64,000 nt of DNA from positions 3,906,001 through 3,970,000 of the forward strand of contig NZ_CP117460.1 of assembly GCF_030687145.1 (NCBI RefSeq), given 5' to 3'. The notes under the pieces are model-generated. The model did no database searches. It was given only the letters and a program-made list of their open reading frames with translations, and was not told where the DNA came from. Source of the DNA: Pseudomonas sp. FP1742 (GTDB taxonomy: Bacteria; Pseudomonadota; Gammaproteobacteria; Pseudomonadales; Pseudomonadaceae). The position numbers and the translations under genes are program-made. Numbering within the stretch: position 1 is the stretch's first letter; every line of letters begins with the position of its first letter. This document shows positions 37,748 through 52,443 of this stretch, in pieces.

Positions 37748-39868
37748 TCAGGTGCGGAAACCGCCCATAAGTTGCTGCTGATGATTCGCTAGCAAATTCA
37801 AGGATTGACTGATGCTCGCAGAATCTTTCGATTGGCGTGCCAGAACATCCGTGACGTCCCGAATACTGGATAAGTTACGATTCACCTCCTCTGAAACGAC
37901 GCTCTGCTCTTCCGCTGCACTGGCAATCTGAATATTCATCTCACTGATAATCTCGATACCCTGATTGATTTTTTGAAGCGCTCCCACAGCACGTTTCACC
38001 TGTGCAACACTGCTATCGGCCTGGCTGCGGCTGTTTTGCATCGACTGAACCACGCTTCGAGTGCCTGATTGAAGATGTTCGATGACGTGTTGAATCTGCC
38101 CTACCGACTCTTGGGTTCGCTTGGCTAAATGACGCACCTCGTCCGCGACTACCGCAAATCCCCTACCAGACTCACCTGCCCTAGCCGCTTCAATCGCAGC
38201 GTTCAAGGCAAGAAGATTCGTTTGCTCGGCAACAGAGCGAATTACTTCGAGGACTGACCCAATTTGCTCGCTATTGTTGGCCAGCGCCTCTACTTGTTGC
38301 ATCGCCTGATGCATTTCCGTAGCAAGTTGTGTGATGCAATCAGTGGTTCTGTCGATTGTCTGCACACCCTCCTGGGTCGCGAGATCAACATTACGAACCG
38401 CTTGAGCTGCTAACGCAGCATTGCGTGCCACCTCCTGCGAAGTCACGCTCATTTCCTGAGATGCAGTTGCGACCTGGTCAACTTCAAGCAATTGTTGCTG
38501 CATGCCGCTATTGGTTTGCATAGCAATGTCTGCTGCCTGGTCAGCAGTACGACGGGTGTCATCAACTGATGATTTCACTTGAGCGATAATGGGCTGCAGC
38601 TTGTCAAGAAACCGGTTGAACCAACTCGTTAAATTCCCGATTTCATCATGTCTTTCATAGTCCACCCGCCGTGTCAGATCACCCTCACCACTTGCGATGT
38701 CCTGGAACATCGCGGCAACACGTAGGATCGGCTGCGTGATGCTACGAGCCAGCATCCATATCAGCACCAATCCGGATAATGCCGCCAAAATACCCACCAT
38801 GAGTTGAATGCCAGCCGCATCCTTGTTTGCTTTGTTCAGCGCCTCTTTGAGCTGTCGAGCCGAGGCGAGCAGGACCACTTCTGGAACCTGAATGACAATA
38901 CTCCAATGCTGCGCACCTGGAATGGGGGAAAACGGCATAATGACGACGACGTTCCCGTCACGCTCAAGTACCTCAGGAGTATCACCTTTCGTACTCGCCG
39001 AGATTTGTTTTCCAAGTTCAGGATCTACGCTTACCAAAGGCTTTCCCGCCGCTTGGGGCTCACCACTTCGAGCGGCAACAACCCCGTCAGCGCTGATGAA
39101 ACTTACCTGTGCATTGCCGCCGTAAAGCGCACGGCTGGACTTTTCTACCAGCTCTTGCAGGCTTGCCAAACTTAAGTCCACACAGAGAACGCCGAGCACA
39201 GAATCACCGCTCATCAAAGGGACTGAAACAGTCGACATCAGCGTCGTGATGCCTTGGGCATTAGTGAACGCATACGGGTTACTTACGCAGTCTTGCTTGG
39301 TCTTGAACGCACAGGTGTACCAAAAAGTACCTGGAGTCCCATCATCGGCCATCTCCTTTTCGCTCATGGTATAGCTCGGAACAAGCGTGGATGCGTAGGA
39401 AGCGAAACGACCTTTTTCATTCCCCCCATCGGTTTTTTGGTTAGTAAAACGAGCGTCATCGCCATCCAATGCATTGGGCTCGAATCCTACCCCTAAGCCT
39501 AATACGCCGCGATTAGCAGCCACTTGCAACTGCATGAGTTTGAATAGGTCACCACGCAGTGTTTTGGTGTCCGTGCCTAGACGCGTCGCTTGTTCACGCT
39601 GAAAGATAACTTGGCGCATGACCGTGTCGCCAAAAACCCTGCTGGTGTCGAATCTTTGACTCACAACTTGGGCTTGCTGCTCACCCAGTTTGGTCATGTA
39701 CTTCAATGCACCTTCTTTGATGGTGAGTGAACTGGACTCATTGCTCAATATCGAAATAGCGTCGATCCGATAGATTGAGAAACCTATCAAGATGGTTGCT
39801 ACGCACAGCATGCAAATGCCCGCGAGCAGCGTTATGCGAAGCTTTATGGAAAAGCTGAGGATGGACAT
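37748..39868 (-). CDS. Methyl-accepting chemotaxis protein with dCache sensor
   Basis: 706 residues from ATG 39868, with AAGGAG upstream. TM1 is at about 10-32. A large periplasmic dCache domain covers 40-345 ([58 protein letters not shown]). TM2 is at about 350-372 ([17 protein letters not shown]), followed by HAMP and the signalling domain with the hairpin tip [24 protein letters not shown]. It lacks a C-terminal NWETF-like pentapeptide. It directs swimming in response to a ligand, often an amino acid or amine for dCache. It follows the catabolic genes upstream of it, which may handle its ligand. Confidence 0.92.
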
Positions 39869-40016: not shown

Positions 40017-41093
40017 TTAAAGAGCGTCGGCGATCGCTTGGCCTACCTCTTGGGTAGATCCTTGTCCGCCCAAATCACGCGTCTTCGGTCCTTGAGCAAT
40101 AACCGTCTCAATGGCCTGCATGATTGCATCGTGAGCAGCACGGAACTCTGGACCGTCACCCAGGAAATCAAGCATCAACGCACCCGACCAAATCATGGCA
40201 ATAGGGTTGGCAATGTTCTTGCCGAAGATGTCCGGCGCCGAGCCGTGGACGGGTTCGAACAGCGAAGGAAATTTGCGCTCCGGATTGAGGTTGGCCGAAG
40301 GTGCAATACCAATGGTGCCCGTGCAGGCCGGGCCGAGGTCAGAGAGGATGTCGCCAAACAGGTTGGACGCCACCACCACATCAAAGCGATCTGGATGCAA
40401 GACAAAGCGGGCACACAGGATGTCGATATGTTGCTTGTCCCATTTGATGTCGGGGTAGTTGTCCGCCATCGCCGCAACGCGTTCATCCCAGTACGGCATG
40501 CTGATTGCCATGCCATTTGATTTGGTAGCTGCGGTCACATATTTGCGTGATCGTGTCTGGGCGAGATCGAAGGCGTATTTGAGGATGCGGTCGACACCTC
40601 GCCGGGTGAATACCGATTCCTGCAGCACGAATTCATGTTCAGTACCTTCAAAGACCCGGCCCCCCACTGAAGAATATTCACCTTCGGTATTTTCCCGGAC
40701 AACGATGAAGTCGATGTCTCCAGGCTTGCGATTGGCTAAGGGACATGCCACACCAGGAAACAGCTTCACCGGGCGTATGTTCGCGTATTGATCGAACTCC
40801 CTGCGAAATTTCAACAAGGACCCCCAAAGGGAAATATGATCCGGCACTTTATCCGGCCAACCAACAGCACCAAAATAAATAGCATCAAAACCTTTAAGTT
40901 GCTCAAACCAGTCGTCGGGCATCATCTTGCCGCAGGCGAGATAATAATCGCAGCTGGCCCATTCAAAGTTTTGAAACTCAAGTTCAATACCGTACTTGGC
41001 AGCAGCCTTCCGCACAACTTTAATACCCTCAGGCATCACTTCGACACCGATTCCGTCGCCGGCAATCGCGGCAATTCGAAACGTCTTGCTCAT
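40017..41093 (-). CDS. Tartrate/D-malate dehydrogenase-type beta-decarboxylating dehydrogenase
   Basis: 358 residues from ATG 41093, with AGGAAG upstream. It has the isopropylmalate/isocitrate dehydrogenase fold: IAAIAGDGIGVEVMPEG at the N-terminus, substrate Arg region RPVKLFPGV, VRENTEGEYSSVGG, catalytic Lys in AATKSNGM, metal Asp in DILCARFVLHPDRFDVVV and NAD region EPVHGSAPDIFGKNIANP. Family members act on tartrate, D-malate or similar 2-hydroxyacids. It is at the downstream end of the minus-strand catabolic series. Confidence 0.88.
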   Translation of the reverse strand: MSKTFRIAAIAGDGIGVEVMPEGIKVVRKAAAKYGIELEFQNFEWASCDYYLACGKMMPDDWFEQLKGFDAIYFGAVGWPDKVPDHISLWGSLLKFRREFDQYANIRPVKLFPGVACPLANRKPGDIDFIVVRENTEGEYSSVGGRVFEGTEHEFVLQESVFTRRGVDRILKYAFDLAQTRSRKYVTAATKSNGMAISMPYWDERVAAMADNYPDIKWDKQHIDILCARFVLHPDRFDVVVASNLFGDILSDLGPACTGTIGIAPSANLNPERKFPSLFEPVHGSAPDIFGKNIANPIAMIWSGALMLDFLGDGPEFRAAHDAIMQAIETVIAQGPKTRDLGGQGSTQEVGQAIADAL

Positions 41094-41247
41094 CACACTT
41101 CCTCTTTAGATTATCAAATCTGCAATAGCTATGAATTAAATCGACTTAAGCAATGACAAAGCGTAGTGAAGAACTTTACGTTCATAATCATTAATTCAGC
41201 CGCTACTGCACCCATCGCAGCAGCGGCAAAGACAGGTCACCGAGTTG

Positions 41248-42762
41248 TCAGACTTGATCGCCTAACGAAGATTCCAACCGTGCATATTTCTCGGGTGACC
41301 GGACACTCAAGTAGAATGCGCCCAGAAAACCCAGCGCAAACGAACCAAACAACAGCGCCATGAAGAACACCTCAAGTGCGCCTTGTACGCCCAGCAAGAC
41401 ATCGAAGCTGGTCAGGGCAAAATAAAGAAACGGTAGGAGACCTGCGACGCTTAACAGGGGGGCGAGAAAGGTATGCCACAACCGTTTGTCCACCGTGGAA
41501 CGACGGAAGAACACAAAGATCGCAATGCTGGCGATGCACTGGATGGTGATGATCCCTGCCGCACCGACTCCGGTGAACCAGGTGAAGAGCGTGTCGTAGG
41601 GATTCAGCCCCAGCACCGCGAATATCGCAACCACCACCGCAACCATTGCGGTTTGCACGTAGCACGCCACATGGGGTGACTTTTGCACGGGGTGAGTCGA
41701 GCCCAGTTTCTGGCTGAGCAACCCCTGGCGCCCCAATGAGTAGAGGTAACGGGCAACGTTGCTGTGGAACGTTACGATGGCAGCAAACAGACTGGTAATC
41801 ACCAGCACTTGAAACAACTCCGTCGCCCAGCCACCGAGGATCTTATCGCTGACCCAGAAAATCAGATTGCCCGATTGGTCCTTGGCCACCGCCACTGCTT
41901 CGGTTGTACCGATTGCATTGATGATCAACCAGGCTGTCAGCGCATAAAATACGCCCATGAAAATCACCGCGATATAGGTCGCTATGGGCACCGTGCGTTT
42001 GGGGTCGCGTGCTTCCTCACCATAAATGGCAGTGCCCTCGAAGCCGATGAACGATGCATGGGCGAACATCAGAGCGACACCGATTGCGCCTGAGAATGTC
42101 GCCGACGGACTGAATGGTTCAAACGAAAACTGGCTCACTGGCACCGAGTGATCGCCAAATAAAATGCCCAGGTCCAGTATCAGAATAATTACCGTCTCCA
42201 GCGTGAGCAGGACCGCCAATACCACGGCGCCTGCATGCAAACGCCGTAACCCCAGCCACAGGCACATCGCCATGGCGGTGAAGGAGTACACCCACCACGG
42301 CAGATGGAGGTTGAGTTGCTTGCCGAGCAACTCATTGAGGTAATAGCCGATACCTCCGTACAGACCAAGTTGAATCGCGTTATAGGAAAAAATTGCCAAA
42401 GAAGCAGAGCCCAGTCCCATGGGGCGGCCGATGCCTTTGGTGATGTAGGCGTAGAACGCCCCGGCGTTGGTGATGTGTTTACTCATCGCCACGTAACCCA
42501 CAGCGAACAGCAATAGCACCAGGGCGACCGCCACAAATGCACCGGCGATGCCGATGCCGTTTCCGGAACCAATGATGACAGGGAACAACGCGACAACCAC
42601 GGTCAGTGGCGCCGCAGCGGCAATCACAAAGAACACGATGCCCATGATACCGATACTGTTTCGTTCGAGGTCTCGGCTATCAGAACTTGGGTTCATGGTC
42701 TTGCCCGGTGTTGATCCCGTTAAGCCCAGCGTAGCTGGTTTATTACTATATTCGTATGACAT
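41248..42762 (-). CDS. APC-superfamily amino acid/amine permease
   Basis: 504 residues with about 12 membrane helices. The first helix has the APC signature (IGIMGIVFFVIAAAAPLTVVV, residues 37-57), followed by VGYVAMSKHITNAGAFYAYITKGIGRP and the consensus GFEGTAIYGEEARDPKRTVP. An extended N-terminus of about 35 residues is hydrophilic. It imports amino acids or amines with protons. Its place among catabolic genes suggests it carries the pathway substrate. It is separated from the upstream SSADH gene by 266 bp with no gene. Confidence 0.9.
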   Translation of the reverse strand: MSYEYSNKPATLGLTGSTPGKTMNPSSDSRDLERNSIGIMGIVFFVIAAAAPLTVVVALFPVIIGSGNGIGIAGAFVAVALVLLLFAVGYVAMSKHITNAGAFYAYITKGIGRPMGLGSASLAIFSYNAIQLGLYGGIGYYLNELLGKQLNLHLPWWVYSFTAMAMCLWLGLRRLHAGAVVLAVLLTLETVIILILDLGILFGDHSVPVSQFSFEPFSPSATFSGAIGVALMFAHASFIGFEGTAIYGEEARDPKRTVPIATYIAVIFMGVFYALTAWLIINAIGTTEAVAVAKDQSGNLIFWVSDKILGGWATELFQVLVITSLFAAIVTFHSNVARYLYSLGRQGLLSQKLGSTHPVQKSPHVACYVQTAMVAVVVAIFAVLGLNPYDTLFTWFTGVGAAGIITIQCIASIAIFVFFRRSTVDKRLWHTFLAPLLSVAGLLPFLYFALTSFDVLLGVQGALEVFFMALLFGSFALGFLGAFYLSVRSPEKYARLESSLGDQV

Positions 42763-43028
42763 CGCTAAAACCCTGTAGGTAGTGAGTTTTTTATTTCGGT
42801 AAAGCGAGGCAGTCGTTAAAAAAGCAATACTCGGCAGCTGTGCCTATATACACCTCGGCACTTTCTGGTTTTTCGTAGTGACAAGTGTCCGTATTATTGT
42901 TGAATCGGTGCAGACTTTGTTCGTAGATCCGTCATATCCCTGTACCGCGACAACCAAAAGATCTCTCCAGACTGTTCGCGCCCAAATCAAATGCTTTAGA
43001 ACAGGCGTTCATCATGTAAGACGCATGT

Positions 43029-44504
43029 TTATGACTCCAAAGTGCAACGTTCAAGTTTGGTCGATATGAACTTCACGTCGAGATACTCTTGAAGTCCCCA
43101 GTGACCACCTTCCCTGCCCAATCCGCTGTCCTTATTGCCACCGAACGGCGCTTGTGCGGTCGATGGTGCTCCATCGTTGACGCCGATCATTCCGTATTCC
43201 AACGCTTCAGCCACCAGTTGCGCTCGGGTCAAGTTCCTTGTCCACAGATAGGCCGCCAAGCCGTATGGCGATGCGTTGGCTGCCGCCACCACTTCAGCTT
43301 CACTGTCGAACGTAATCAGCGGCGCCACCGGACCAAAGGTTTCCTCCTGCATGATCAACATCGTTGCAGTCACGTCCTGGAGCACGGTCGGTTGAACATA
43401 GAAGCCTTCCATCCGGACACCTCCGGCGATGATTCGAGCACCTTGGGCCACCGCATCGGCGATATGGCTGAGTGCTTTATCGCGTGCATGTTCATCCACC
43501 AACGGGCCTATCCGGGTGGACTCTAGCAATGGGTCACCCACCTGGAGCCGATTGACCGCAACGGCGAGTTTTTCGGCGAACTGATTGACGATCGAGCGAT
43601 GGACATAGATGCGATTGGTGCACACACAGGTCTGTCCAGCATTGCGGAATTTGCAAGCCACGACCTCATCCACGGCCGCGTCCAGATCGGCATCTTCAAA
43701 AATGATGAACGGTGCATGCCCCCCCAATTCCAGAGACATCCTTTTCAGTGTCTTGGCCGATTGTTCGTACAGACGCTTGCCCACTTCAGTGCTACCGGTA
43801 AAGGTGAGTTTGCGAATACGCGGGTCATCGAACATCACCTGAGACACCGTTCGCGGATCCGTGGTGGTAATCACCTGCAAGGTTCCAGGAGGGCCCCCGA
43901 CTTCTTCCCACAGTTTGGCGAAATACAGTGCTGTGAGCGGTGCTTGCACAGGAGGTTTGACAATGGCCGTACACCCCACTGCCAGCGCCGGCGCCAGCTT
44001 GCGGGTGATCATCGCCGCAGGAAAATTCCACGGTGTAATGGCATACACAGGCCCAACCGGCTGTTGCAGGGTCGCCAGCCGTTTGTTGCCATGTTGGCTC
44101 GGCATGCTTTCGCCGCCGACACGCCGCCCTTCTTCGGCAAACCAGTCGATAAACGAAGCGGCGTAAACGACTTCTCCACGGGCTTCCTGGATCGGCTTGC
44201 CCATTTCCATGGTGATGGTACGGGCTATGCCCTCGGTGTGTTCGATGACAGCGTTGTACCAGGCACGCAGCAGTGCGCACCGATGATGAGCGGTTGTCTG
44301 ACGCCAGGTCTGGAATGCGGCACTGGCGGCATCGGCAGCCAATATTGCCTCTTCAATACCGGCGCTCGGAAGCTCGGCGATGATTTCCCCGGTCGCTGGA
44401 GAGCGCACCGGAAACCAGGCAAAGGCGCTGATCCATTGACCATTGACGAACATCTTGCGACGACCGCCATCGTTCGAGCCCGGTGTAAAGATTGGAAGTT
44501 TCAT
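43029..44504 (-). CDS. NAD(P)-dependent succinate-semialdehyde dehydrogenase-like aldehyde dehydrogenase
   Basis: 491 residues from ATG 44504, with AGGTGG eight bases upstream; GTG 44516 lies within that site. Typical GabD-type motifs: AITPWNFPAAMITRKLAPAL, FTGSTEVGKRLYEQ, catalytic Glu in MSLELGGHAPF, catalytic Cys in GQTCVCTNR and EETFGPVAPL. It would oxidise a semialdehyde (succinate or glutarate semialdehyde are likely) to the acid. It is the second aldehyde dehydrogenase in the cluster, 68 bp downstream of the flavoprotein gene. Confidence 0.88.
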   Translation of the reverse strand: MKLPIFTPGSNDGGRRKMFVNGQWISAFAWFPVRSPATGEIIAELPSAGIEEAILAADAASAAFQTWRQTTAHHRCALLRAWYNAVIEHTEGIARTITMEMGKPIQEARGEVVYAASFIDWFAEEGRRVGGESMPSQHGNKRLATLQQPVGPVYAITPWNFPAAMITRKLAPALAVGCTAIVKPPVQAPLTALYFAKLWEEVGGPPGTLQVITTTDPRTVSQVMFDDPRIRKLTFTGSTEVGKRLYEQSAKTLKRMSLELGGHAPFIIFEDADLDAAVDEVVACKFRNAGQTCVCTNRIYVHRSIVNQFAEKLAVAVNRLQVGDPLLESTRIGPLVDEHARDKALSHIADAVAQGARIIAGGVRMEGFYVQPTVLQDVTATMLIMQEETFGPVAPLITFDSEAEVVAAANASPYGLAAYLWTRNLTRAQLVAEALEYGMIGVNDGAPSTAQAPFGGNKDSGLGREGGHWGLQEYLDVKFISTKLERCTLES

Positions 44505-44572
44505 GTAGTGATCCACCTATTCGGTTATGCCGCCTTCCCATCAAGAGAAAGGCACGTCGTACACAATCGCTG

Positions 44573-46285
44573 TCACTTGCTCAGGCGTTCGGTGAGGCTT
44601 CGAAAAATGCGCGACCTGGCGACCTGATAGCCGAGGCGTTGCCCGACATCCGTTTTCAACAAATTGCCGATCAGCCCGTTATCCGCCTTGAGCACCTTGC
44701 GCCCCGCTGCCGTATCGGTTTGCCCGGCCAGGTCGGCAAGGATGCGTTGCGCCGCGTTGTGCCCGGGCATACCACTGACACCGCCGCCGGGATGGCTGCC
44801 GGAGCCACAAAGGTAATAACCGGGAACCGGCGTCCGGTAATGCGCCGCCGCTTTGATGGGGCGATTGTCGAAGAGGTTATCCAGGCCGATCATGGACTGA
44901 TGGAAGATGTTTCCACGGGTGATGTGATAGTCGCGATGCAGATCCAGTGGGGTGATCACGTGGCGAGCGAGAATGTGATTGCGCATGTTCGGTGCATAGC
45001 GGAAATAGATCTCCAGCACCTTGTCAGCCCACTCTTCCTTGCGTGTGTCCCAATCTCCATGGGCCAGGTCAAATGGCAATTGCTGCACCCCCAACGAGAG
45101 CGTATGAGTACCTGGCTGGCTCACCAGTCCCGGGTGGGTCACAGAGGGAATCAGCGCCTCAACCACCATGTCATCCGGAAACTCGCCACGCTGCTGTGCT
45201 TGCCAGGCCATTTCATAAAGGGCCGGGGATGGGCCGAGAATGTTCAAACCCTGATGCTGGGGCCCCAGCTTGCCGGCCGGAAAGCCGACATAATCCGGCA
45301 GCGCGTCCACCAGCAGGTGAATACGCGCCATGGAGCCGCGCTGATCAATCTCCTTGGCATCGGCTGCCGCCGCCTCTGGTAGCGCCCCTTCAGGTAACAA
45401 CCCCACCAGAGAGCGAGTCGGGTCTGCACCGGAAATGACCAGCGGCGCGCGAATCTGCTCGCCCGAGGCCAGCAGAACCCCCACTGCCTTACCCTCTTCA
45501 ATCAACACCTTCTGGATGGGCGTACTCGTTTCAACCCTTCCGCCGAATGCTTGCAAGGCACTGACCAGCGATTCACTGATCATGCCCATCCCGCCTTTCG
45601 GCAGACCATAACGACCGAACTGACCTTCGAACTCTCCCAACGCGTGATATCCATAGACATAGGCCGTGCCTGGCGTGGTTGGACTTCCCCACGTGGAGAC
45701 CAGGCCCATGAACATCATGAAGCCGCGAAGACGATCGGACTCTATGTAGTCCTTCAGCAGGTCCTCGGCCGAAGCCGTCATGAACTCGTCGTACAGCGCG
45801 CTTTCACCAGCGTCGTCAAAGATCGCTTTCAAGCGTTGTTGAGTCGGCGGGTCGCTGAGCTGGATTTCATGCGTCAGCTCACCGAAACGCTTGAGCCGCG
45901 TGGCGAAACGCATGAAGTTGGCGCCATCGGCTTTGTTGTGATCTTCGATCGAACGCAGGGTCTTGTCGATCTCCTGCCAGAACATCACGCGATCACCGTC
46001 GTCCCATAGCGCCATTTCCTGCAAGCCCGGAGCCACCGACTCCAGTCCGTATTTTTTCAGTTCCAGATCGTCGACCACTTCCTGTCGAAACATCATCTGA
46101 ATGTACGAGCAAGAAGAGAAAATAGCGCCCGGTATCAGTTCTTCACTGGTACAGGCGCCCCCCACAATCGGCCGGGCCTCCAACACCAATACTTTGAGGC
46201 CTGCCCTGGCCAGATAGTTTGCGCACACCAGCCCGTTATGGCCGGCACCGATGATCAGGGCATCAAGATCGTTATGCTTATTCAC
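44573..46285 (-). CDS. PYROXD2/phytoene-desaturase-like FAD oxidoreductase
   Basis: 570 residues, starting at GTG 46285 (GGAA upstream). The N-terminus holds the FAD Rossmann motif ALIIGAGHNGLVCANYLARAG with an acidic ribose-binding residue (VLEARPIVGGACTSEE). The C-terminal FAD closure reads GYYLCGSGSHPGGGVSGMPGHNAA. The fold is that of carotenoid desaturases and amine oxidases. Relatives are poorly characterised, but in amine-degrading clusters this type could oxidise a C-N or C-C bond. It lies 77 bp after the unknown small gene. Confidence 0.85.
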   Translation of the reverse strand: MNKHNDLDALIIGAGHNGLVCANYLARAGLKVLVLEARPIVGGACTSEELIPGAIFSSCSYIQMMFRQEVVDDLELKKYGLESVAPGLQEMALWDDGDRVMFWQEIDKTLRSIEDHNKADGANFMRFATRLKRFGELTHEIQLSDPPTQQRLKAIFDDAGESALYDEFMTASAEDLLKDYIESDRLRGFMMFMGLVSTWGSPTTPGTAYVYGYHALGEFEGQFGRYGLPKGGMGMISESLVSALQAFGGRVETSTPIQKVLIEEGKAVGVLLASGEQIRAPLVISGADPTRSLVGLLPEGALPEAAAADAKEIDQRGSMARIHLLVDALPDYVGFPAGKLGPQHQGLNILGPSPALYEMAWQAQQRGEFPDDMVVEALIPSVTHPGLVSQPGTHTLSLGVQQLPFDLAHGDWDTRKEEWADKVLEIYFRYAPNMRNHILARHVITPLDLHRDYHITRGNIFHQSMIGLDNLFDNRPIKAAAHYRTPVPGYYLCGSGSHPGGGVSGMPGHNAAQRILADLAGQTDTAAGRKVLKADNGLIGNLLKTDVGQRLGYQVARSRIFRSLTERLSK

Positions 46286-46362
46286 GGCGTCATTCCATCT
46301 GAATGTGAAATCAAATGCCTGTCCACCTGCACGGTGAACAGGCCGCCTGCACGGCCAGCGAC

Positions 46363-46803
46363 TCAGGCCGGCAGCACCAACTTGAACAACTGGTGATCGG
46401 TGAAGGTGTCATCCGGGTGACCGACAAAATTGCCCGTCACAATGCCGGTCGCGCCTTCGAATCGGCCACCACCACGAATCACGCGCCAAGCGATCGAACC
46501 GGTGCTGTAGCCGCTTGCCTGCACTTTAAACTGGCCTGGCATGACCGTTTCAACATCGAGATAACTGTCGATCCCGGGGAAGTCGACGCGGCCGGTTTCC
46601 CAACTTTGCTCGCCCCGCACGGTCACCACCGTATCGAAGTGTGCGACACCAGTCGGAACCTGCAACGCCCCCTCGCCCTGCACATCCGCCACTGGATCGA
46701 GTGCAAGAATTAGCCCCTGGGCACGGGACCTTACGACACCGGTGGCGTGGCCAATGGCTTCGGCCTTGCCGGTGAAGTAGATCAGCATGGTGTAGGTTTT
46801 CAT
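46363..46803 (-). CDS. Unrecognised 146-residue beta-rich protein
   Basis: Three ATGs in a row (46809, 46806, 46803) overlap the aminotransferase stop. The third has the best spacing from GAGGGG. It has no signal or membrane helix. The protein is rich in short strands and glycine (MLIYFTGKAEAIGHATGVV, IAWRVIRGGGRFEGATGIVTGNF), suggesting a small beta-barrel, somewhat like the allene-oxide-cyclase or dirigent shape. I do not recognise the family. Its embedding in the operon suggests a pathway enzyme or binding protein. Confidence 0.6.
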   Translation of the reverse strand: MKTYTMLIYFTGKAEAIGHATGVVRSRAQGLILALDPVADVQGEGALQVPTGVAHFDTVVTVRGEQSWETGRVDFPGIDSYLDVETVMPGQFKVQASGYSTGSIAWRVIRGGGRFEGATGIVTGNFVGHPDDTFTDHQLFKLVLPA

Positions 46804-46805
46804 CA

Positions 46806-48155
46806 TCATCCCCTCACACCGGTGGTTTTGCTCAGATCGGCCATGACGTCGGCCAGAATGTCGAGGAAGTAGGCGGCGTTGTCGGCGGTAAATGGCAACG
46901 GCGGGCGTATCTTCAGAACGTTGCCCAACGGACTGGAAGCGCTGATCAACACGTTGTGGTCGCGCAACTTGTTGACCACTTGCATGGCCAGTTCCTCGTA
47001 CGGCTCTTTGGTGAGCGGGTCCTTAACGAATTCCGCCCCAATGAACAGCCCCGCTCCCCGGACATCACCGATCACCGGATATTCCTTGGCCAGATCACGC
47101 AGACCGGCACGCAATACCTCACCGACCACCAGAGAATTCTTTTGCAGGCTTTCCGCTTCGATCACCTCCAGTACCGCCATCGCCGCGGCGGTGGAAACCG
47201 GATTACCGCCAAAGGTATTGAAGTAACGCGCGGTCGTTGCAAAACGGGTCAGCAGTTCCGGTTTCGCCACCACACCACCGATGGGAAGACCGTTGCCCAT
47301 TGGCTTGCCCATGATCACCAGGTCTGGCACGACACCGTGACGCTGGAAGCCCCAAAACGTATCGCCGGTACGCGCGAAACCAGGCTGGACCTCGTCAGCG
47401 ATGAACAGCCCGCCAGCCCGGCGGACCGCTTCGACGGCCTTGACCAGAAAACCACGCGGGTCGGAGAAGACGCCATCACTGGAGAATATGGTGTCTGTCA
47501 CCAGCGCCGCCGGACGGATGCCGTGACGCAGCATGTCCGCGATTGCCGCTTCAACCGACTCGGCGAACGCGTCGCCGACGTCCTTGTCGCCCGCACGATA
47601 GGCGTCCGGTGCCGGGACCAGGCGCACCATGCTGCCCAACGCCACGCCTTCACCCAAAGAGGGGGACATCTCGGCAATCGCGGCAGTAATGCCGTGGTAG
47701 GCGTTTTCAGTCACGATGATGCCAGTATTACCGGTATGGCAACGCGCGATTCGTACCGCAAGGTCCGATGACTCACTACCGGTGCAAGTAAACATGACGT
47801 TCGCCAATTCCCCAGGGAAGGTAGCGATCAGCTTTTCGGCGTAGGTCAGTACAGTGTCGTACAGATAGCGGGTGTGGGTATTGAGCAGTGCCATCTGTTT
47901 GGAAACCGCCTCCACGACATGAGGATGGCAATGGCCTACCGAAGGCACGTTGTTGTACACATCCAGGTACGGCGTGTTGTGCGAGTCGTACATCCACACG
48001 CCTTCAGCGCGGACGAAGTGCACAGGCTTTTCATAAAACAACTTGTAGGACGGGCCCAGCACTTTTGCGCGGCGTTTGAGCAGTTGTTCGATCACTGGGT
48101 CCAGGCCATGAGCCTGAGCAGGATCGAACGAGTTGATCATCAATGGACGATTCAT
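46806..48155 (-). CDS. Class III PLP aminotransferase-fold protein, probable amino-alcohol-phosphate phospho-lyase
   Basis: 449 residues from ATG 48155, with GGAG upstream. It has the full fold: VRAEGVWMYDSHNTPYLDVYNNVPSVGHCHP, FTCTGSESSDLAVRIAR and LFIADEVQPGFARTGD. The PLP Lys is Lys284 in VIMGKPMGNGLP. The GKPMGNG stretch and DVYNNVPSVGH are features I associate with phosphoethanolamine/phosphohydroxylysine phospho-lyases (AGXT2L1/L2) rather than ordinary omega-aminotransferases. Such enzymes remove ammonia and phosphate together to give an aldehyde. An APH-type kinase lies 4 bp upstream, the expected partner. Confidence 0.75.
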   Translation of the reverse strand: MNRPLMINSFDPAQAHGLDPVIEQLLKRRAKVLGPSYKLFYEKPVHFVRAEGVWMYDSHNTPYLDVYNNVPSVGHCHPHVVEAVSKQMALLNTHTRYLYDTVLTYAEKLIATFPGELANVMFTCTGSESSDLAVRIARCHTGNTGIIVTENAYHGITAAIAEMSPSLGEGVALGSMVRLVPAPDAYRAGDKDVGDAFAESVEAAIADMLRHGIRPAALVTDTIFSSDGVFSDPRGFLVKAVEAVRRAGGLFIADEVQPGFARTGDTFWGFQRHGVVPDLVIMGKPMGNGLPIGGVVAKPELLTRFATTARYFNTFGGNPVSTAAAMAVLEVIEAESLQKNSLVVGEVLRAGLRDLAKEYPVIGDVRGAGLFIGAEFVKDPLTKEPYEELAMQVVNKLRDHNVLISASSPLGNVLKIRPPLPFTADNAAYFLDILADVMADLSKTTGVRG

Positions 48156-48159
48156 TATT

Positions 48160-49224
48160 TCACTCCAGGTTGCATGCTTTGCGAAGAATGGATTGGGCAT
48201 CCGCTCGACTGACTTGCGCCAATCGCTGGAGCCCATCCCAGGCAACGCCTGTGTTCTTGAGGATGTAATGACGGTTTGCGGGATATAGACGTGCCCGAAA
48301 TTCGGTGATCGCAATCGCGGTACACAGACGCGTGATAATCAGGTCATAAAGCAAGTCCACTTCCTCGACCAGGAGCGGCAGCACGCGGTGATAGGCCCCA
48401 AGCATCTCGGCAACCTTGCTCAACGGGTGGTCGCCGTCGGTGTGGTAACTGGCGGCAATGGCGATGTCGTTGATCAGCTGGGTCGCCACCATGTCGCCAA
48501 AATCGAGGATGCCCGAGACTTCATCATGACGCCCCTCATCCATCAGGATGTTGTGTGGATTGAAGTCGGCATGAACCACCTGGCTGCGCAATTTGATAAG
48601 TCGGTGGTAGACGACTTCGTCGAAATAATCGAAGCCTGCCCGAACCAGGTTCCAGGGTTTATTGCCATCGGCATGCTGCGTTGATGGCAGCATCTCCCGG
48701 CAAGCTGCCGCTTGCTGAATGTCCCACGCCAGGACTCGATCAGCACCCGGGTGATTGAAACCACGCAGCGCTAACCCAAGCTCGGCCAGACTGATGCCGA
48801 TGTTTCGCAACTGGGCTTGCGAGCTGACACTTTTCGGCAACGCCAAGCCTTCCAGAAACGAAGTCATCCAGATAATTCGTCTCGGGTTGTCACCCACTTT
48901 CGCCGCAAAGGACGTTTCACCGTTGAGCGACGCAATCAATAGGGGAACTGGAATATACGGTGCGCGTTCGGCCAGCCAGGCCAGCGCCTGAATCTGCATA
49001 TCAATGGTCGCGTGATCATCTGCAGGGTTCGACATCCGCAGGATGTACTGCAAGCCGTCGACTGAAAAAACATGGAACAGCTCGTCGCGTTCACAACTGA
49101 TTCGCGTGCATCGGACACTCATGCCATACCGGCCCAGAACAAGCGCTTCGACTTCCGCCAAAGGCGTCTCTTCGACAGCGGTCGTCATATTGCTCAGTGA
49201 TAGCGAAAGACCGTTAATAGTCAT
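48160..49224 (-). CDS. APH-fold kinase, probable amino-alcohol or hydroxylysine kinase
   Basis: 354 residues; ATG 49224 is taken, ATG 49188 is an alternative, and neither has a strong ribosome site. The kinase fold shows the nucleotide-loop region VDGLQYILRMSNP. The catalytic loop is VVHADFNPHNIL, with His218 and Asp220 and a metal Asn, and the metal Asp is in GILDFGDMV. This family includes hydroxylysine kinase, homoserine kinase II-like and choline kinases. Pairing with the phospho-lyase (4-bp gap) indicates that it phosphorylates the hydroxyl of an amino alcohol or hydroxy amino acid. It is not an antibiotic-resistance gene by context. Confidence 0.75.
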   Translation of the reverse strand: MTINGLSLSLSNMTTAVEETPLAEVEALVLGRYGMSVRCTRISCERDELFHVFSVDGLQYILRMSNPADDHATIDMQIQALAWLAERAPYIPVPLLIASLNGETSFAAKVGDNPRRIIWMTSFLEGLALPKSVSSQAQLRNIGISLAELGLALRGFNHPGADRVLAWDIQQAAACREMLPSTQHADGNKPWNLVRAGFDYFDEVVYHRLIKLRSQVVHADFNPHNILMDEGRHDEVSGILDFGDMVATQLINDIAIAASYHTDGDHPLSKVAEMLGAYHRVLPLLVEEVDLLYDLIITRLCTAIAITEFRARLYPANRHYILKNTGVAWDGLQRLAQVSRADAQSILRKACNLE

Positions 49225-49344
49225 TGGATATGCTGCCTAATGCTATTCAGGACCCGTTTTCGAAGCACGGCCCAGCCGCGACCTGATAAACAGGTCGCTC
49301 TGCAGTGCGCTCACAAGAGTCCCGAATCTCGAATATCGGGAGTA

Positions 49345-49362
49345 CCCCCGCCGGAGCGGGGG
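49345..49362 (-). terminator. Hairpin between aldehyde dehydrogenase and kinase genes
   Basis: CCCCCGC and GCGGGGG pair around a 4-base loop, seven bases beyond the aldehyde dehydrogenase stop. No T-tract follows on the minus strand, so it may weaken rather than stop transcription into the kinase gene or protect the upstream message. Confidence 0.5.
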
Positions 49363-49369
49363 CGTCATA

Positions 49370-50815
49370 TCATTCGAAGTTCATCATGACGTGACGAACG
49401 ACCGTGTAGTCTTCCAGGCAGTAGATCGACTGATCCTTGCCATAACCGGACATCTTCATGCCGCCGTGAGGCATTTCGCTCAGGAGGGTGAAGTGTTGAT
49501 TGACCCAGGTGGTGCCGTATTGCAGACGCGCACTGACCTTGGCAGCAGTCTTGGCATCACGGGTCCAGACTGACGAAGCCAAGCCATAGCGGCTGTCGTT
49601 CGCCCAACCGATGACCTGATCAACGTCCTGGAAGGAGGTCACGGAAACCACGGGGCCAAACACTTCACGCTGGACAATTTCATCGGTCTGCAAGGCCCCG
49701 ACGACGAGCGTCGGCTCGTAATAGAAACCATTACCCGCCACATACTTGCCGCCAGTGATGACCTTAATATGCGGTTGGTCCTTCGCACGGTCGACAAAGC
49801 CCCCAACGCGTTCACGCTGTCGGGCGCTGATCAGCGGACCGAGTTCTGTACCAGCCTGGTCGGTAGGCCCCAGTTTGATCGAAGACACGGCCACTTTGAG
49901 GGCCGCAACGAGTGCATCGTGAACACTTTCATGCACATAGATACGGCATGCAGCGCAGCAGTCCTGGCCGGCGTTGTAGAAGCCAGCCGAGCGCACGGTG
50001 GAAACCACCGCCTCCAGATCCGCATCAGCCATCACGATCACCGGCGCCTTGCCGCCCAGTTCGAGGTGGGTGCGTTTGAGATTACCTGTCGCCGCTTTCA
50101 GGACTTTCTGGCCGGTGGTGACATCTCCTGTGATGGACATCATGTTGATATCCGGATGTTCACCAAGCGCTTGGCCGACCGTTTGCCCACGCCCGGTGAC
50201 AATATTGACCACACCAGGTGGCAGCATCTCGGCAAGAATACTGCCCAGTTTCAATGCGGTGAGCGGGGTGTTTTCCGAAGGTTTCATCACCACGGTATTA
50301 CCCACGGCAATCGGCGCAAAAATTTTCCAGGTGGCCATTGCCAATGGGAAGTTCCAAGGAGCGATGGCCCCCACCACGCCAACCGGATCACGACGAATGA
50401 TGCTCGTGTGGTTGGCTGCGTATTCACCTGCCGCCAGCCCGGTCAGGCAACGCGCCGCGCCGGCAAAAAAGCGAATGTTATCGACTACGCCCGGTATCTC
50501 ATCCTCAAGCATGCGCTCGTAGGGCTTGCCCACGTTCAACGATTCTATTTGGGCAAAAGCGGCACCTTCCTGTTCGATTCGATCGGCAATTTTCAGCAGC
50601 AGCGCCGAGCGTTTTCCTGGGGGCAACTGCGACCAGGCCGGGAACGCCTTGCGAGCGGCCGCCACCGCTTGATCAATCTGTTCGAGGCTGGCTTCCGGCA
50701 CTTCTCCCAGCACTCGACCGGTGGCCGGGTTCACCAGCGTTTCTGCGTGGCCTTCGCCGCGAACCAGCTGGCCGTCAATCAACAGATCAATCACGAACTC
50801 TTGTGTAGTGCTCAT
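49370..50815 (-). CDS. Gamma-aminobutyraldehyde dehydrogenase-like aldehyde dehydrogenase
   Basis: 481 residues from ATG 50815, with GAGAG upstream. Motifs: [21 protein letters not shown], Glu in [13 protein letters not shown], Cys in [24 protein letters not shown]. The overall sequence most resembles aminobutyraldehyde/betaine-aldehyde dehydrogenases, which accept amino-aldehydes. That suits the product of an amino-alcohol phospho-lyase. It is the first gene of the minus-strand series and is divergent from the MocR regulator 131 bp away. Confidence 0.87.
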
Positions 50816-50908
50816 AGTTACTCTCACGCTCGTCTGTAAAAACTGTGGCAGGGCAACCAGCACGTCACGACCCGGCTGCGCTCCTCGTTACAGACAAACT
50901 ATGACAAT

Positions 50909-50932
50909 ATGGACTGAGCACCTATGTCCAAT
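50909..50932. promoter_or_regulatory. Inverted repeat in divergent promoter, possible MocR operator
   Basis: ATGGAC (50909) and GTCCAAT (50926) form an imperfect inverted repeat 14-38 bp before the regulator start. On the minus strand it covers a plausible -35/-10 pair (TTGGAC, 16 bp, TATTGT) for the aldehyde dehydrogenase gene. Position fits an operator; proof is lacking. Confidence 0.3.
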
Positions 50933-50946
50933 CGGAACGAGTTGTT

Positions 50947-52443
50947 ATGTCCACTTTTGACCCCAATCTACTGTCTGACCTGATTCTCGCCACGCTGAAG
51001 GAAGACAGCGGAATATCGCTGCAACGGCAAATCTACAAAGTGGTGCAGCAAGCAATCCTTGAAGCGAGGCTGGCCCCGGGTCATCGCCTGCCTGCCACCC
51101 GCGCGCTGGCCAAAGAATTGAAGGTCTCACGCATGACCGTCACCCTGGCCTACGACAAACTGGGCGCCGAGGGATACATCATCAGCACTCATGGCAGCGG
51201 CAGTTTCGTGGCCAATATTCACCCCGCCGTCAGCCGAGCACAGGTGGCAACGGAGCTTTCGGCGTCTGATGACAGACCAGGACTGTCACGCCGGGCAGTC
51301 GAATTGGTGGGTGGGACTCACGGGGCTATAGAGCATGAAGGGGCATTCGTCCCGGGTGTTGCCGACACCACCAACTTCCCCTTCCATATCTGGCAACGCA
51401 TGCAGAATCGATACGCCAAGAAACCGTTCTCGGCGCTGACCGGCTACAGTAGCGACGGGGGTTATCTGCCTCTGCGTCAGGCCCTGGCGGAGTACTTGCA
51501 GATATCGCGCTCGGTAAAATGCAGCCCGCACCAGATCCTGATCACGATGGGAACGAATCAGTCCCTGGACTTGTGCGCACATATGCTGGCCGACACGGGC
51601 GACGTCGCACTGATCGAGGAGCCCTGCAACTGGAGCACGGCACTTATTTGGAAGGCGGCAAGCCTGAGAGTAGTGCCCGTTCCGATCGATGAGGATGGTG
51701 TCGCTGCTCAGCTCTTTCCTTTTCAGAAAACCAAGCCTGAAGACCTGCCAAAATTACTCTTCACGACACCGTCGCACCAATATCCGATGGGGGGCTCGAT
51801 GGGCTTGCACCGGCGCCGACTGTTGATTGAATTGGCCAGGAAACATAACTTCTGGATTATTGAGGACGACTACGACAGCGAGTTCCGTTATGACTCCAGC
51901 CCCCTACCCTCTCTGCAGGGACTGGATGAACATGAGCGGGTCATCTATCTGGGCACCTTTAGCAAGGTGATGTACCCAGGGTTGCGAATGAGTTATCTAG
52001 TGGTGCCCGAAGCACTCGCCGACGCCTTCGCCAGTGGCCTGACTCAGTTGTACCGCCCAGGCCAGCTTGGACTTCAGGCCGCCATGGCCGACTTCATCGG
52101 CGAGGGCTATTTCGCGACCCATATCAGAAGAATGCGGGGCATTTACGCGGAGCGTCAGCGCGAACTGAAACGTGCGTTGAATGAACACTTTGGTGACACC
52201 ATAACGGTTTCAACCGGTAACACCGGACTGCACCTGACCATACAGTTCACCTCCAACATTGACCTTGCCAGAATGACAGCAGAAGCCAGAACGAGAGGCG
52301 TATATCTGCGCGATATAAGCCTCTATCACCAACTGCCGCATTCAATGAAAGGTTATGTCCTAGGTTATGGAGGAGTCAGGACGAATGATATCGAACCCGC
52401 CGTCAAAAAGATGGCCGAGGCCTATCTAGTGGCAAAAAAGTAA
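50947..52443 (+). CDS. MocR/PdxR-type regulator (GntR winged helix fused to aminotransferase domain)
   Basis: 498 residues. The GntR winged helix covers about 20-90 (GISLQRQIYKVVQQAILEARLAPGHRLPATRALAKELKVSRMTVTLAYDKL in pieces). A linker follows, then a class I aminotransferase fold with a PLP Lys at 340 (GTFSKVMYPGLRM) and IIEDDYDSEFRYD. MocR proteins use the PLP domain to sense an amine or amino acid and switch adjacent metabolic genes. It is divergent from the aldehyde dehydrogenase, so it very likely controls this cluster and senses its substrate or an intermediate. Confidence 0.92.
   Translation: MSTFDPNLLSDLILATLKEDSGISLQRQIYKVVQQAILEARLAPGHRLPATRALAKELKVSRMTVTLAYDKLGAEGYIISTHGSGSFVANIHPAVSRAQVATELSASDDRPGLSRRAVELVGGTHGAIEHEGAFVPGVADTTNFPFHIWQRMQNRYAKKPFSALTGYSSDGGYLPLRQALAEYLQISRSVKCSPHQILITMGTNQSLDLCAHMLADTGDVALIEEPCNWSTALIWKAASLRVVPVPIDEDGVAAQLFPFQKTKPEDLPKLLFTTPSHQYPMGGSMGLHRRRLLIELARKHNFWIIEDDYDSEFRYDSSPLPSLQGLDEHERVIYLGTFSKVMYPGLRMSYLVVPEALADAFASGLTQLYRPGQLGLQAAMADFIGEGYFATHIRRMRGIYAERQRELKRALNEHFGDTITVSTGNTGLHLTIQFTSNIDLARMTAEARTRGVYLRDISLYHQLPHSMKGYVLGYGGVRTNDIEPAVKKMAEAYLVAKK

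Follow-up and report, generated by a model that had tools for sequence, protein, structure and literature searches.

Gene content of the cluster

We analyzed a 64-kb window of the Pseudomonas sp. FP1742 genome (64,000 nucleotides; "window" refers to this whole stretch), focusing on a gene cluster at positions 40017-52443 in which a MocR-type regulator faces genes for a kinase, a class III pyridoxal phosphate (PLP) enzyme, two aldehyde dehydrogenases (ALDHs), a flavoprotein, a permease and a tartrate-type dehydrogenase. The source genome is a single contig of 6.67 Mb. An initial annotation had described nine genes here and proposed that they break down an amino alcohol or hydroxy-amino acid by means of a kinase and a phospho-lyase. 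A check of open reading frames over the window recovered all nine at the same positions, and their families were identified as follows.

50947..52443, plus strand: MocR-type regulator (GntR plus aminotransferase-like domain, from family searches), divergent from the operon
49370..50863, minus strand: gamma-aminobutyraldehyde-type ALDH (ABALDH; NF010000, 747.8 bits against a cut-off of 615)
48160..49224, minus strand: APH-fold kinase, a putative amino-alcohol kinase (PF01636; NF004799, 248.9 bits)
46806..48155, minus strand: class III PLP enzyme of the phospho-lyase group (Aminotran_3; bit scores to 6tor and 5g4i, signature residues, tree)
46363..46809, minus strand: small protein of 148 amino acids without a family (predicted 8-strand barrel)
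44573..46285, minus strand: flavoprotein with a carotenoid-desaturase/amine-oxidase fold, a putative amine oxidoreductase (CrtO/CrtI-like, PF01593)
43029..44516, minus strand: succinate-semialdehyde dehydrogenase (SSADH)-type ALDH, a putative malic-semialdehyde dehydrogenase (TIGR01780, 611 bits; 502.8 bits to the malic-semialdehyde dehydrogenase 8s33)
41248..42762, minus strand: APC-family permease, a putative importer (PF13520)
40017..41096, minus strand: tartrate/D-malate dehydrogenase (TDH), beta-decarboxylating (TIGR02089; 657 bits to 3flk)
37748..39868, minus strand: methyl-accepting chemotaxis protein with a Cache-type sensor, adjoining the cluster, membership unsure

The eight minus-strand genes of the cluster are separated, in coordinate order, by 151, 266, 56, 77, -4, 4 and 145 bases, and the divergent starts of the MocR gene and the first ALDH gene lie 83 bases apart. 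Repeats in the MocR promoter comprised one inverted pair of 8 bases. A scan gave 2 promoter-like sites against 6.9 expected and 13 terminator-like sites against 12.1 expected. Because the gene set recurs in other lineages at 34-68% identity and in rearranged order, the cluster is more than a chance assembly, and we regard it as almost certainly real and co-conserved. The chemotaxis protein is a possible substrate sensor; it also adjoins the cluster in another Pseudomonas (L096), where its sensor part is 86% identical, and it is unlike the chemotaxis protein of an Agrobacterium locus (L085).

Enzyme classes encoded in the cluster

We compared the PLP protein with solved class III enzymes. It scored 360.2 bits to human ethanolamine-phosphate phospho-lyase (ETNPPL, 6tor) and 351.5 bits to 5g4i, which we take to come from Arthrobacter, and 190.2 bits to the next solved class III sequence. 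An alignment set 84 phospho-lyase-like rows against 13 further class III enzymes, made up of two outgroups and 11 paralogues from the source genome, with the fused paralogue L106 excluded. The columns that discriminated the two sets include N68, N69, R96, N313 and K415, all of which the window protein has in common with 6tor and 5g4i. The motif GKPMGNG around the PLP lysine was present in the window protein and in 76 of the 84 lyase-like rows. A pattern able to catch this motif found it in none of the 12 class III paralogues fetched from the source genome, which has 14 besides the window protein, one with an internal stop. L106, part of a 976-residue open frame at 333 kb of that genome, keeps N68, N69, R96 and K415, with Ser replacing Asn313 and AKGMGNG replacing GKPMGNG. 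A tree of the 84 proteins and two outgroups placed the window protein in an eight-row clade (98/89) with L001, L096, L084, L085, L002, L003 and L004, nested in a wider group of L022, L029, mycobacterial and Arthrobacter/Erwinia rows; the nearest named locus was Pseudomonas sp. RIT288, 98% identical. The initial annotation's reading of this protein as a phospho-lyase is upheld at the sequence level by bit scores and signature residues: it scores closer to ETNPPL and 5g4i than to transaminases, and it falls in a clade of its own in the tree.

The kinase motifs HADFNPHN and DFGD are intact, as read from the translation. In NCBIfam it came closest to NF004799, a family of fused kinase-aminotransferases, over the kinase portion; against the PDB, only homoserine kinase and APH(2'') matched, and no characterised hydroxylysine kinase was among the matches. 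A gap of 4 bases separates the lyase gene from the kinase gene, and 41 of 80 loci had a kinase homologue close to the lyase; 16 of the 80 loci were shorter than 15 kb. Taken together, kinase and phospho-lyase chemistry on an amino alcohol is well supported from sequence, and we consider it very probable. The two proteins best match the two ends of the PRK06148/PRK06149 fusions (NF004799, NF004800) in NCBIfam, but are separate in the window.

Both ALDHs were then compared with curated families. The ABALDH exceeded the subfamily cut-off and stayed under that of the equivalog TIGR03374 (714.1 vs 909.3 bits); it scored 640 bits to 1wnb, and its homologues in L003, L084 and L085 were 63-67% identical. 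The SSADH-type enzyme was under the curated cut-offs (611.0 vs 646.35 for TIGR01780, 559.6 vs 828 for NF008415), both of which the homologue in L084 clears. The substrate-binding residues of 8S33 are named in PMC11353897, and an alignment showed Arg166, Arg284 and Ser447 to be conserved in the window enzyme together with the catalytic Cys290 and Glu256, and the cofactor residue Asn184 to be replaced by Val. All six cluster SSADHs examined (window, L003, L084, L085, L068 and L080) keep the Arg/Arg/Ser set; since it also occurs in GabD, these residues indicate a C4 semialdehyde-acid and not malic semialdehyde specifically.

The TDH scored 564.5 bits to TIGR02089 (cut-off 470.4), and its homologues in L003 and L084 scored 534.5 and 527.3, a score that does not distinguish tartrate from D-malate. 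Its solved match, 3flk, is named tartrate dehydrogenase/decarboxylase; this enzyme, from P. putida, accepts D-malate as well. In Mycolicibacterium hippocampi (L068), a YdiJ-like protein with FAD_binding_4, FAD-oxidase_C, Fer4 and CCG domains occupies the place where a TDH would be needed, between phospho-lyase and SSADH; its best NCBIfam match was the D-2-hydroxyglutarate dehydrogenase YdiJ, at 476 bits under a cut-off of 1350. The YdiJ-like frame of Mycobacterium NS-7484 (L080:3348-5309) has 653 residues against 971 in L068, lacks the C-terminal part and seems cut short. No TDH was found in the examined L068 and L080 stretches, and the rest of these mycobacterial genomes was not searched for it. 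The presence of two unrelated D-2-hydroxyacid-type enzymes beside the same genes suggests a D-2-hydroxyacid intermediate, and a D-2-hydroxyacid product of the pathway; that its tail runs through D-malate is, in our judgment, fairly likely.

Elsewhere in the source genome, a second SSADH (53% identical) is followed by a second TDH (83%; L124:8968-11529, genome ~3033512-3036025) in an apparent operon with a Dpp/peptide-type ATP-binding cassette (ABC) transporter, BFD-/DAO-type flavoproteins and an M20 deacetylase. These flavoproteins presumably resemble opine oxidases. This operon looks like a separate opine- or amine-type catabolism that also ends in malic semialdehyde and D-malate, and SSADH with TDH seems to form a standard terminal module that follows the oxidation of an amine. 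At another place in the genome, an SSADH homologue is followed by a class III aminotransferase gene, a gabD-gabT-like pair not named by family search.

The flavoprotein, CrtO/CrtI-like with a PF01593 match, was rare among sampled genomes. Matches were found in 3 of 298 Pseudomonas genomes, its own included (1e-100), in 1 of 274 genomes of the class, namely its own (1e-120), in 3 of 297 genomes of the family of an Agrobacterium genome, and in 1 of 201 genomes of the family of a Mycolicibacterium genome, namely that genome itself (both 1e-150). At 1e-150 there was no match among 249 genomes of a Caballeronia family or 343 of a Pectobacterium family, searches that lacked a positive control and whose empty results therefore carry no weight; protein-level matches nonetheless bear the names Klebsiella variicola, Pantoea and Caballeronia. 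In a second flavoprotein clade (L086, L102, L103), the gene lies directly after an aldose-epimerase-like gene with ABC transporter genes near, and in L086 and L103 a short-chain dehydrogenase/reductase and a LacI regulator also stand by it, a possible sugar- or iminosugar-type use of the family.

The small protein had no match in NCBIfam or Pfam. Its predicted fold, an 8-strand barrel, resembles the cyclase PloI4, dirigent proteins and allene oxide cyclases among the matches listed. Among the loci examined, it was present in L001, L096, L003, L084, L085 and the fragment L099, and 10 of 27 database homologues come from assemblies whose longest contig has the same length as that of a listed flavoprotein homologue.

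Recurrence of the gene set in other genomes

We found the full set (kinase, phospho-lyase, ABALDH, flavoprotein, SSADH-type ALDH, TDH and small barrel protein) in three arrangements: that of the window, L001 and L096; that of a bog gammaproteobacterium (L003); and that of plasmids of Rhizobium CIAT894 (L084) and Agrobacterium CFBP7129 (L085). In L003, where identities to the window are 39-67%, an SSADH-TDH-small protein unit diverges from one ordered flavoprotein-ABALDH-kinase-lyase-APC. On the plasmids (34-68% identity in L084), SSADH-TDH diverges from LysR-ABALDH-kinase-lyase-four ABC genes-small protein-flavoprotein, so that a LysR-type regulator replaces MocR and a sugar-type ABC transporter replaces the APC permease. 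The rhizobial ABC binding protein belongs to SBP_bac_1, and its best solved matches are mostly sugar-binding proteins. The APC permease shares 67% identity with its L003 homologue and 66% with those of L068 and L104.

Two mycobacteria carry most of the set, without the small protein. M. hippocampi has APC-flavoprotein and kinase-lyase-FAD/FeS dehydrogenase-SSADH units in L068; no ABALDH-type gene was present in the examined L068 stretch, and one of 49% identity accompanies a second flavoprotein in L094 of the same genome. Mycobacterium NS-7484 has kinase-lyase-YdiJ-like dehydrogenase-SSADH in L080, where an ALDH sharing 45% identity with that of the window lies farther along, and ABALDH-flavoprotein-APC on another contig (L104), where the ABALDH is 51% identical and adjoins the flavoprotein.

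The retention of these genes together in rearranged order points to one pathway. The suggestion in the initial annotation that the flavoprotein and the dehydrogenase represent further steps also looks right, because both are conserved alongside the kinase and phospho-lyase. In the neighbourhood count of the 80 loci, with homologues taken from 40% identity upwards, the flavoprotein lay near the lyase in two of four loci inside the window's clade and in 1 of 76 outside it, and the same figures were obtained for TDH. A TDH near the phospho-lyase of Agrobacterium vitis (L014) was not counted; its neighbours are another TDH-like frame and a gene that reads as LysR-like without a family search, and at E 1e-70 the A. 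vitis genome gave no flavoprotein match.

Two observations weigh against full linkage. L002 and L004, of the same lyase clade, lack neighbouring members of the set, apart from a kinase in L002, and another Pseudomonas (L093) has the flavoprotein (74%) and the ALDH (82%), with no kinase, lyase or TDH in the examined stretch. We read L093 as a different pathway using the same first two steps.

Several neighbourhoods contained other genes. The pair in L093 (L093:8356-16171) is accompanied by an NCS1-type permease, a small HD-domain protein, a class II aldolase and a GntR-like regulator. In L094 (L094:1723-10478), a permease, an ALDH and a flavoprotein copy lie behind genes resembling a meta-cleavage lower pathway (hydratase, acylating acetaldehyde dehydrogenase, aldolase), named by reading their first residues and not by family searches. 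The MocR gene of the L096 Pseudomonas is followed (L105:2375-11837) by a pyridine-nucleotide oxidoreductase-like gene, a flavodoxin-like gene (read), a cytochrome P450 and two APC-permease homologues.

Candidate substrate and proposed route

To search for a substrate that would employ all of these enzymes, we turned each of the five activities into a rule acting on unbranched chains of C3-C6, each used once and ending at TDH. Under these rules, which are our own and do not cover branched and cyclic compounds, one of 264 starting chains fitted all five steps, CH2NH2-CHOH-CHOH-CH2NH2, by six orders. Allowing the flavoprotein to act on CH2OH added 4-amino-1,2,3-butanetriol, and omitting the last step left 14 chains, including 2-hydroxyputrescine. 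Only after the enumeration was the literature consulted for 2,3-dihydroxyputrescine: pharnilatins A and B from Pharbitis nil seeds contain the (2S,3S) form, according to a review (PMC11944718). By priority bookkeeping of the remaining carbinol, the (2S,3S) isomer leads to (R)-malate, which is D-malate, and the (2R,3R) isomer to L-malate, for which no special dehydrogenase would be needed. The skeleton of 1,4-diamino-2,3-butanediol has 3,4-dihydroxypyrrolidine as its ring form.

We therefore tentatively propose an operon for a C4 diamino-diol, of which (2S,3S)-2,3-dihydroxyputrescine (1,4-diamino-2,3-butanediol), as such, as the ring form 3,4-dihydroxypyrrolidine or N-substituted, would be the most likely. 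We infer the substrate and the order of steps from this logic, and the classes of kinase, phospho-lyase, ALDHs and dehydrogenase from sequence. The flavoprotein would oxidise one amine to the aldehyde, which the ABALDH would convert to 4-amino-2,3-dihydroxybutanoate. The APH kinase would then phosphorylate the hydroxyl adjacent to the remaining amine, and the phospho-lyase would release ammonia and phosphate, leaving 2-hydroxy-4-oxobutanoate. The SSADH-type enzyme would oxidise this to D-malate, and the tartrate-type dehydrogenase would yield pyruvate and CO2. The order may be partly exchangeable, and as a guess, the small barrel protein may handle a cyclic imine between the first two steps. 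Two other ideas were set aside by reasoning: hypusine-type 4-amino-2-hydroxybutyl compounds carry amine and hydroxyl in a 1,3 relation that we judged unusable by the phospho-lyase, and tartrate as a product conflicts with the loss of one hydroxyl at the lyase step under the enumeration rules.

Should the last dehydrogenase be accessory, the strongest competing substrate is 2-hydroxyputrescine; the initial annotation had hydroxyputrescine on its list of compounds to assay. Kinase and lyase would yield 4-aminobutanal, the ABALDH gamma-aminobutyrate (GABA), and deamination followed by SSADH succinate. Both ALDH family names fit this route literally, and the compound is among the 14 chains that use the flavoprotein, kinase and lyase, and both ALDHs. 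It accounts for every step except TDH, however, and offers no job for TDH or its mycobacterial YdiJ-like counterpart, one of which is present in all eight clusters examined; the gabD-gabT-like pair is moreover already available elsewhere in the genome. We consider this route unlikely.

A different amine with several hydroxyl groups, for instance 4-amino-1,2,3-butanetriol or an iminosugar of larger size, might feed into the same malic-semialdehyde tail. The enumeration admits the butanetriol if the flavoprotein oxidises a primary alcohol, a polyhydroxylated compound would suit the sugar-type ABC importer found in Rhizobium and Agrobacterium, and the related flavoproteins beside aldose-epimerase-like genes point the same way. 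On the other hand, the flavoprotein is paired with the aminoaldehyde-type ALDH even where no kinase is near (L093, L094 and L104), which suggests amine chemistry, and we hold substrates of this kind to be improbable too.

It is quite doubtful that the kinase and lyase serve an ordinary catabolism of ethanolamine, 1-amino-2-propanol or 5-hydroxylysine, the other compounds listed for assay in the initial annotation, beside unrelated neighbours. The lyase is indeed nearest, among solved sequences, to phosphoethanolamine-type enzymes, and 38 of the 76 loci outside the window's clade have a kinase homologue with few of the other cluster genes near. These substrates nevertheless leave the SSADH, TDH and flavoprotein unexplained, and these neighbours are co-conserved in rearranged form in distant lineages, with the flavoprotein near the lyase in only one of the 76 loci outside the clade. 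Enzymes for acetaldehyde, propionaldehyde or aminoadipate semialdehyde are not the best-scoring match of either ALDH: 5-hydroxylysine would need the last of these, while the two match aminobutyraldehyde and succinate-semialdehyde types best, and for ethanolamine and 1-amino-2-propanol there is no fitting aldehyde step and there are too many extra conserved genes. An ordinary omega-transaminase role for the PLP protein, with an unrelated substrate for the kinase, is very improbable: the class III fold is common to transaminases, but about 160 bits separate the two phospho-lyases from the next solved class III enzyme, the signature residues are rare in the 13 comparison enzymes, and the kinase gene keeps close to the lyase gene.

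The proposed diamino-diol route resembles known systems in parts. As in ETNPPL/AGXT2L1 and 5g4i with an amino-alcohol kinase, an APH-type kinase adjoins a class III PLP enzyme with NNV, Arg96, Asn313, Lys415 and GKPMGNG in common; the window route differs in its flavoprotein, two different ALDHs, D-2-hydroxyacid-type dehydrogenase and separate tree clade. Putrescine and GABA catabolism uses a homologous ALDH pair (aminobutyraldehyde dehydrogenase and SSADH), but the window cluster has no ordinary GABA transaminase and adds the kinase/phospho-lyase and tartrate/D-malate-type steps. In the malic-semialdehyde route given in PMC11353897, an SSADH-type enzyme and a beta-decarboxylating dehydrogenase likewise lead through D-malate to pyruvate, whereas the semialdehyde there comes from a Rieske monooxygenase and here would come from the kinase, phospho-lyase and amine-oxidising flavoprotein. 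Our literature searches found no description of such a route, no paper with four of the five enzyme names and, among the titles listed, none on dihydroxyputrescine breakdown; most subscription journals lay outside the search, including the 2012 paper on hydroxylysine kinase and phospho-lyase. By these searches, the pathway is novel.

A further and still more tentative possibility is that this is the first catabolic pathway for a plant diamino-diol, in which the natural diamine's stereochemistry would make the D-malate step obligatory and the barrel protein would open or channel a cyclic imine. The diamino-diol reading predicts exact intermediates. If true, it would assign functions to seven proteins together, among them a flavoprotein resembling phytoene dehydrogenases and a barrel protein that lacks annotation, and would provide a bacterial fate for a rare plant polyamine.

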